A stretch of 64,000 nucleotides of DNA from Candidatus Methanogranum gryphiswaldense (GTDB lineage Archaea > Thermoplasmatota > Thermoplasmata > Methanomassiliicoccales > Methanomethylophilaceae). The stretch is from assembly GCA_019262145.1 (NCBI GenBank), contig CP076745.1:183093-247092 (forward strand). The letters run 5' to 3'. Below the pieces are notes generated by a model. It searched no databases. It was not told the DNA's origin and saw only the letters and a list, made by a program, of their open reading frames with translations. The first letter of the stretch is position 1. Each line of letters opens with the position of its first letter. Below are positions 48,216 through 49,066 of this stretch, in pieces. A program made the translations under genes and the position numbers.

Positions 48216-48291
48216 GGACTCGTGGTCTAGGGGTTATGACGTCGCCCTTACAAGGCGAAGGTCGCCGGTTCAAATCCGGCCGGGTCCACCA
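48216..48291 (+). tRNA. tRNA-Val (TAC), CCA encoded
   Basis: This cloverleaf has acceptor GGACTCG/CGGGTCC, anticodon stem TCGCC/GGCGA with loop CTTACAA, and T arm GCCGG-TTCAAAT-CCGGC. The tRNA body ends at 48288 and an encoded CCA follows. TTTTTAATA about 30 bp ahead is a likely TATA element. It is nearly identical to the opposite-strand tRNA-Val at 48991-49066. Confidence 0.95.
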
Positions 48292-48382
48292 TATTCTCAC
48301 ACATTTTGTTTTGTTTATCATTTATCGTTTTGTTTACTATTGTTAATATTTTTATTGTACATATGTGCATTTTTTGTAAATA

Positions 48383-48393
48383 AAATATATATA
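48383..48393 (+). promoter_or_regulatory. TATA box before the possible structured RNA
   Basis: AAATATATATA is centred about 25 bp upstream of base 48412, where the first stem of the proposed RNA begins. Confidence 0.4.
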
Positions 48394-48411
48394 GTATATA
48401 CTTCGATAGAT

Positions 48412-48542
48412 GGAGTATGCAACCATCCAAATGGTTGCTGAACTCCAAAGGATTCCGTAATTCTTCCTCTGGGAATCTCGCGGGGAGCAAAATATCTCCA
48501 ATAAAAAAGGCGAGGAAATGGACGGGAAACTCGCCTCTTTTT
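48412..48542 (+). ncRNA. Possible novel structured RNA (no known class)
   Basis: About 130 bases downstream of a TATA element can form several helices: GGAGT with ACTCC (48412-48416, 48442-48446) enclosing GCAACCAT-CCAA-ATGGTTGC (8 bp, 48419-48438); GATTCC with GGAATC (48451-48456, 48472-48477); GGAG with CTCC (48484-48499); and AGGCGAG with CTCGCCT (48508-48536) followed by five T residues. No tRNA, SRP, RNase P or riboswitch signature is recognised. A 16-codon ORF beginning ATGGAGTAT overlaps the first half, so a short mRNA remains possible. Confidence 0.4.
48508..48542. terminator. Bidirectional hairpin terminator
   Basis: AGGCGAG and CTCGCCT form a 7-bp stem flanked by A-rich sequence on the left and T5 on the right, so it reads as hairpin plus T-run on both strands. 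It lies just past the stop of the minus-strand ORF that ends at 48548 and at the end of the proposed plus-strand RNA. Confidence 0.6.
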
Positions 48543-48547
48543 ATATT

Positions 48548-48946
48548 TTAAAAAAGTTTGCTGCATATGGGCACTTGACGGCAAGCCGAGGATGCAAAAT
48601 AGACTTGGATCTTATATCCCTTTTCGATCAAAGGACTAAAAGAATGTTGCCAACCATTCATAGAAAGTTCTTCAGGAATAAGAACAACGTTATTTCTGTC
48701 CGGTCCGCACATGGATTCTATGTAGAATGTTAATTCTCTTGGAAAAAGATATCTCGCGGTCGAATCCCTATCAAGAAGTATTATGTTGGCGGAAGGATCT
48801 TGTTTAAGAACCTCCTCCCTTACAATCTTGATAAGGCCCTTCGTGCCTTCTTCGCGCAGACCAGCAATTGTTCTTAAAGAACTGTCGCTGACGAACTTTT
48901 CAACAACCAATCTTGGATCTCCTTCTGCAGGACACGCATTGACCAT
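48548..48946 (-). CDS. Unrecognised 132-residue protein
   Basis: I do not recognise this protein. It has no membrane segment, and its C-terminus reads FASSACRQVPICSKLF with two cysteines. Acidic and basic residues alternate in the first half, suggesting a soluble alpha-beta protein. It is a single gene with its own TATA-like upstream stretch and a hairpin terminator, and it lies between two inverted tRNA-Val genes, so a past insertion is possible. Confidence 0.6.
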   Translation of the reverse strand: MVNACPAEGDPRLVVEKFVSDSSLRTIAGLREEGTKGLIKIVREEVLKQDPSANIILLDRDSTARYLFPRELTFYIESMCGPDRNNVVLIPEELSMNGWQHSFSPLIEKGYKIQVYFASSACRQVPICSKLF

Positions 48947-48990
48947 GAAGATGGTAGTGACTTGAGTATTATTACTCTTTATTGTAAAAA

Positions 48991-49066
48991 TGGTGGACCC
49001 GGCCGGATTTGAACCGGCGACCTTCGCCGTGTGAAGGCGACGTCATAACCCCTAGACCACGAGTCC
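48991..49066 (-). tRNA. tRNA-Val (CAC), CCA encoded
   Basis: This minus-strand cloverleaf is identical to the tRNA-Val at 48216-48291 except for three bases in the anticodon loop, here TTCACAC. The body is 48994-49066 and the encoded CCA occupies 48991-48993. GTTAAATAGG about 30 bp upstream is a likely TATA element. Confidence 0.95.

Follow-up and report, generated by a model that had tools for sequence, protein, structure and literature searches.

RyhB-type small RNAs of bacteria belong to a control system in which a metal- or cofactor-responsive repressor acts, and a scarce cofactor (iron) is spared by silencing its users. Some bacterial sRNAs carry C-rich loops that bind Shine-Dalgarno sequences. 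The archaeal sRNA162 of Methanosarcina mazei masks a ribosome-binding site and is linked to the methanol/methylamine switch; it targets a transcription-factor mRNA via an unstructured linker, plus a cis-encoded gene (PMC3510493). A cobalamin regulon with an unknown regulator has been predicted in Pyrococcus (PMC10746257).

The window analysed here is a 64,000-nt stretch of DNA from Candidatus Methanogranum gryphiswaldense. It contains a predicted small RNA, henceforth referred to as the window RNA, which probably acts in trans, under corrinoid or cobalt control, to block translation of mtmC by pairing with its ribosome-binding site. This proposal is held with reasonable but not strong confidence, and transcription, regulator and repression are all inferred. 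By analogy, the window RNA would work like sRNA162 and the RyhB-type sRNAs; no sequence kinship to either is claimed. It resembles the RyhB type in its proposed control by a cofactor-responsive repressor and in the likewise proposed silencing of cofactor users, and differs in being archaeal, in presenting a loop on a stem, in concerning corrinoid/cobalt rather than iron, and in that its regulator has not been identified. To our knowledge, no Hfq requirement is known for the window RNA. An exposed UCCUCC-like loop aimed at ribosome-binding sites is common to the window RNA and the C-rich-loop bacterial sRNAs, whereas the lineage, and an extended target-specific complementarity co-evolving with mtmC, set the window RNA apart. 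With sRNA162 it shares a methylotrophic methanogen host and the masking of a ribosome-binding site, the latter being a proposal for the window RNA; the tRNA-Val locus and the dyad described below belong to the window RNA, and sRNA162 is not known to have either (PMC3510493). For the Pyrococcus regulon and the window system alike, cobalamin genes are predicted to be under an archaeal transcription factor; the passage on the former (PMC10746257) mentions no RNA member. Archaeal sRNAs whose control site is defined, whose structure is conserved and whose target is named are few, and candidates for all three are obtained here from genomes.

The predicted RNA and its homologues

A preliminary description of this locus had proposed a new structured RNA of no recognised class between two tRNA-Val genes, with a TATA box about 25 bp ahead of a run of nested helices. 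Each of these elements is indeed present: the TATA box lies at 48386-48394, the helix with the CCAA loop, two more stems and a hairpin followed by T5 can all be traced in the sequence, and tRNA-Val genes of opposite orientation stand on either side. The features in window coordinates are as follows.

48216..48291, plus strand: tRNA-Val(TAC), 5' flank, member of the conserved locus (synteny)
48386..48394, plus strand: TATA box TATATATAG, promoter of the predicted RNA (from sequence; ~25 bp 5' of 48412)
48411..48429, plus strand: dyad TGGAGTATGCAACCATCCA resembling an operator, one mismatch to TGGATTATNCANCCATCCA; overlaps the predicted transcript start; no binding data
48412..48542, plus strand: predicted small RNA, ~131 nt; start inferred from the TATA box and end from T5, no transcript data
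48412..48446, plus strand: first hairpin, whole
48412-48416/48442-48446, plus strand: 5-bp closing stem of the first hairpin
48419-48426/48431-48438, plus strand: 8-bp inner stem of the first hairpin, CCAA loop
48450..48478, plus strand: second (conserved) hairpin GGAUUCC/GGAAUCU with exposed loop, stem 48450-48456/48472-48478; position-equivalent in 27 copies
48461..48470, plus strand: loop UUCUUCCUCU, predicted to pair with mRNA; perfect 10-nt complement of AGAGGAAGAA, the ribosome-binding site of mtmC
48482..48499, plus strand: third stem, 48482-48486/48495-48499, window-specific
48509..48542, plus strand: terminator-like hairpin GGCGAG/CTCGCC, 48509-48514/48530-48535, with T5 at 48538-48542; not kept in homologues
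48991..49066, minus strand: tRNA-Val(CAC), 3' flank, member of the conserved locus (synteny)

The minimum free energy of the element was -48.4 kcal/mol compared to -31.9 ± 4.1 for dinucleotide shuffles (z -4.0; 1 of 200 shuffles equalled it). Without the terminator hairpin the z value was -4.3, and none of 200 shuffles was as good. Rfam 15 covariance models run against the window and the homologous loci returned only tRNAs above the gathering score, and no family matched the element; the best sub-threshold match to the element had an E value of 2. The box C/D, H/ACA guide RNA, tRNA, RNase P and SRP RNA models do not match the element, and no published description of the RNA was found in the open-access literature.

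A DNA similarity search with the element against 100 relatives gave one true match (G001, same genus), the rest being chance. Such a search is nearly blind because the stem sequence is rewritten while the loop stays, and homologues were recovered via synteny instead. The tRNA-Gly/tRNA-Val synteny, together with pattern searches, yielded 27 copies in 23 genomes of genera g1, g4, g5, g11 and g13, and the gene order tRNA-Gly / tRNA-Val(TAC) / RNA / tRNA-Val(CAC) is kept in many genomes of these genera. The corresponding place between the tRNA genes of genus g12 is occupied by other sequence. In all 27 copies a hairpin accompanies a TGGAT-N5/6-TCCA dyad close to the predicted transcript start, and an AT-rich, TATA-like box lies 5' of the dyad at a roughly constant position; tandem pairs occur in G049, G119, G035 and G126, both members having a TATA box and dyad of their own.

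What homologues retain is limited to the TATA box, the start sequence and the UUCUUCCUC-loop hairpin at 48450-48478; conservation does not extend to the closing 5-bp stem, the third stem or the terminator hairpin. The CCAA hairpin is kept in G001 and G014 alone, both of which have lost the closing stem, and is absent from other genera. One compensatory change (CAACCAU/AUGGUUG to CAUCCAU/AUGGAUG) was observed in the G014 hairpin, and an exact search with the first-hairpin pattern recovered, among true copies, only the window genome (G000) and G001. The helix stressed by the preliminary description is present in the window but is not the conserved part, and its sequence is better read as partly a DNA control site overlapping the start. 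Compensatory changes in homologues, named there as the support to be sought, were found for the second hairpin, which had been listed merely as a further stem, and not for the outer 5-bp stem. Given homologues with such changes and no Rfam match, a new structured RNA is supported, with its transcription inferred.

Other differences at the locus were also observed. Rubredoxin-/flavodiiron-type genes (named by eye) lie between the tRNA-Val genes of G002, a third species of the window's genus (L079 1655-3262), and the RNA was not found in this incomplete genome. A segment containing the RNA and a 132-aa ORF is inverted in G001 relative to both tRNA-Val genes (L085 2533-3278 compared to window 48216-49066), as if recombination between the inverted tRNA repeats had flipped it. 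The ORF (window 48548-48946, minus strand) has no Pfam match, is shared at 35-49% identity by g1, g4 and a single g12 genome, and displays conserved cysteines near both ends (by eye) and weak similarity to parts of ~400-aa proteins. It was rejected as a partner of the RNA, its relatives in other genera having no adjacent tRNA-Val or RNA.

The conserved hairpin and its exposed loop

UUCCUC or UCCUCC is present in the loop of each of the 27 copies. With the loop core fixed and the flanks shuffled, a stem was detected at p<0.04 in 26 of the 27; the exception is the window's own hairpin, which at 7 bp is weak (shuffle p 0.22). The combined p of this hairpin-strength test, 5e-28 over 27 copies, is overstated because the copies are related and were partly selected for hairpins. 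Pairs were counted on nine closely alignable g4 hairpins only, because MAFFT did not align the genera as a whole well enough for this. In these sequence-aligned hairpins, 89.9% of cells are pairing compared to 42-57% for slid partners, and changes on both sides were observed at 6 of 11 pairs. Within the window's genus the second stem is GUGCCC/GGGCAC in G001 as against GGAUUCC/GGAAUCU in the window, with UCUUCCUCU in both loops, and at the equivalent place in G014, from another genus, a 12-bp stem GGGCCGAGGGAA/UUCCCUCGGCCC encloses UUCUUCCUCC.

The loop core is predicted to be unpaired with a mean probability of 0.95 over the 27 copies. In the full window transcript the loop is predicted to be >0.9 unpaired, whereas a transcript cut short within the third stem folds the loop core in, leaving it 0.21 unpaired; in these folding models, the third stem of the window RNA may keep the loop free. 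Covariation among the genomes compared supports the hairpin with its loop as the conserved structured part of the RNA.

Complementarity between the loop and mtmC

For four genomes, a list of B12-binding genes was drawn up and the loop was compared with their ribosome-binding sites; mtmC was selected after viewing ~9 such genes per genome, and its orthologue was then fetched from the RNA-bearing genomes. The gene 3' of it is MtmB (PF05369, 2e-87), and the name mtmC is used because the gene precedes mtmB; NCBIfam places it in the general corrinoid-protein subfamily only, with a score below cut-off. Start codons were picked by rule. In the window genome the mtmC reading could be extended upstream in frame, though its orthologues share the same methionine start.

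Most RNA-bearing genomes display 10-14 nt of perfect complementarity between the loop and the mtmC Shine-Dalgarno region, the uninterrupted runs being 10 nt in G000 and G050, 11 in G123, 12 in G049 and G027, 13 in G014, G026 and G122, and 14 in G005. The mtmC site AAGGAGGAATAAA of G026 is the exact complement of the loop sequence UUUAUUCCUCCUU. The predicted pairing covers the Shine-Dalgarno itself and ends a few bases from the start codon. Loop and site change in step, as with UGUCGUUUCCUCCU and AGGAGGAAACGACA in G005 and with UUUUCCUCCUU and AAGGAGGAAAA in G123, and the complementarity extends well past the loop core (AACGACA in G005, GGAAAA in G123, TAGG...AATAA in G049).

Loops and sites were swapped among 21 genomes, giving a mean of 9.05 for own pairs compared to 7.44 for swapped pairs (p 1e-5; within genus, p 4e-4). 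These p-values need a roughly tenfold discount because mtmC was chosen among ~9 genes, and the result still stands. Background sites did not reach the mtmC value in G000 (140 ribosome-binding sites, maximum 7), G026 (95 genes, maximum 11, itself a corrinoid protein gene) or G035 (78 genes, maximum 8). Some pairing is expected with any gene having a strong Shine-Dalgarno, because the loop core is complementary to such a site. The match is just 6-8 nt in several genomes; in the g4 subgroup G121, G124 and G130-G132 it is 6 nt and confined to the core, and no loop match was found for mtmC of G006 or of the g11 genomes G022 and G031. Genome comparison bears out an exposed loop that is complementary to, and co-varies with, the mtmC ribosome-binding site, and repression is inferred from it.

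A similar test of mttB as a second co-varying target gave 7.2 with its own loop and 7.4 with others (p 0.82); despite runs of 9 nt in G000 and 8 nt in G001 with the own loop, mttB was rejected as co-evolving since no own-loop preference was observed. A 10-nt loop match GGAGGAAGAA lies 5' of ramA in G006, encoding the corrinoid-activating protein (RamA TIGR04270, 735 bits), and other corrinoid-system genes such as this one are possible targets. The candidate target list is not genome-wide complete. A 4Fe-4S protein gene of the window genome (L321 582-1367; G000:C1 about 1044780) carries GAGGAAGAA directly 5' of its start and is a candidate further target. Separately, a repeated gene with GAGGAAGAACTGGAATG near its start was observed in at least three identical contexts in G006 (C1 880424, 887865 and 1232322) and is probably a mobile element.

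The dyad, the proposed mechanism and its alternatives

TGGAGTATGCAACCATCCA is a variant of a dyad, TGGAT-N5-ATCCA with an additional TCCA, that occurs widely in the order. Order-wide, motif matches were ~15-fold over the reversed control. A TATA-like box was present within 45 nt of 29 of 41 dyads, compared to 2.6 at random positions; the 41 are loci fetched around motif matches, RNA copies included. In the window genome the dyad adjoins the gene for the adenosylcobalamin-dependent ribonucleotide reductase (at 890518). Other genes adjacent to it encode CbiG, CobD, corrinoid proteins, NifH/CfbC-like proteins and a periplasmic-binding/dockerin protein. It is from the many corrinoid/B12-type genes beside the dyad that a corrinoid- or cobalt-responsive repressor is inferred. 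Genes without an obvious corrinoid link (TopA, Sel1, P-type ATPase, hydantoinase) also lie next to the dyad, and no formal enrichment test was performed. That a repressor at the dyad senses corrinoid or cobalt has not been shown, the regulator being unidentified and binding data absent.

In the proposed mechanism, an inferred repressor sensing corrinoid or cobalt supply would occupy the TGGAT-N5/6-TCCA dyad at the RNA start, and the RNA would be produced under corrinoid shortage. A pyrimidine-rich loop, roughly U(U/A)UUCCUCC(U), would then be displayed on a GC-rich stem, a structure backed by covariation, and would bind the Shine-Dalgarno region of mtmC, a pairing backed by the co-variation of loop and target. 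Ribosomes would thereby be blocked at mtmC, the head of the monomethylamine corrinoid/methyltransferase operon, and corrinoid spared; this repression is inferred. The broader proposal is about as likely as not: a family-wide archaeal analogue of RyhB, sometimes in two tandem copies with own operators, that shuts down corrinoid-dependent methylamine methanogenesis under corrinoid shortage and whose loop and target co-evolve between genera. If true, methane formation from methylamines by the methanogens of guts and wetlands would be linked to corrinoid supply, and archaea too would have evolved the metal-sparing logic of bacterial sRNAs. The co-variation of loop and leader provides natural swap pairs between genera.

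A real conserved structured RNA could instead bind a protein through its CCUCC loop, or serve as a general Shine-Dalgarno decoy, with the mtmC pairing a by-product of strong sites. Any strong Shine-Dalgarno can pair with the invariant core UCCUC(C), mttB matches the loops of other genomes as well as its own, and the 6-8 nt mtmC matches in several genomes point the same way. Complementarity well beyond the core that shifts together with the loop in G005, G123 and G049, and the swap-test result both overall and within genera, however speak against a by-product, and we regard this explanation as unlikely while keeping it in view. Activation of the targets, or stabilisation of their mRNA, is harder to address since the direction of regulation cannot be read from sequence; it is considered very improbable, the pairing spanning the Shine-Dalgarno much as archaeal sRNA162 masks a ribosome-binding site (PMC3510493).

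The dyad is the best conserved stretch and is present at many other promoters, as it would be if the element were mainly a DNA operator/promoter and the hairpins side effects or the first part of a longer transcript (an untranslated leader, for instance). Against this stand a covarying hairpin with an invariant loop core 3' of the dyad in 27 of 27 copies, the repetition of promoter and hairpin in each tandem g4 copy, and the convergent orientation of the following gene in the window and in G001; only a slight chance is given to this reading. A short coding gene, with a peptide starting from ATGGAGTATGCAACC... in the window and G001, is scarcely credible. ATG-GA(G/T)-TAT-(G/T)CA-ACC-ATC-CAA is in frame in G000 and G001, but the g4 copies are without the ATG, the frame ends ahead of the conserved loop in the window, and the dyad-to-loop distance varies among copies. 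The short ORF was rejected on this variation of start codon and spacing.

Two further settings of the dyad were observed. In several g12 genomes (L138, L140, L147, L167) it precedes the gene for DNA topoisomerase I, an unexpected member of a corrinoid-type regulon. It also lies upstream of surface proteins (L136, L146, L156, L163), mostly of the dockerin type and one with a periplasmic-binding domain, which possibly capture corrinoid or metal.
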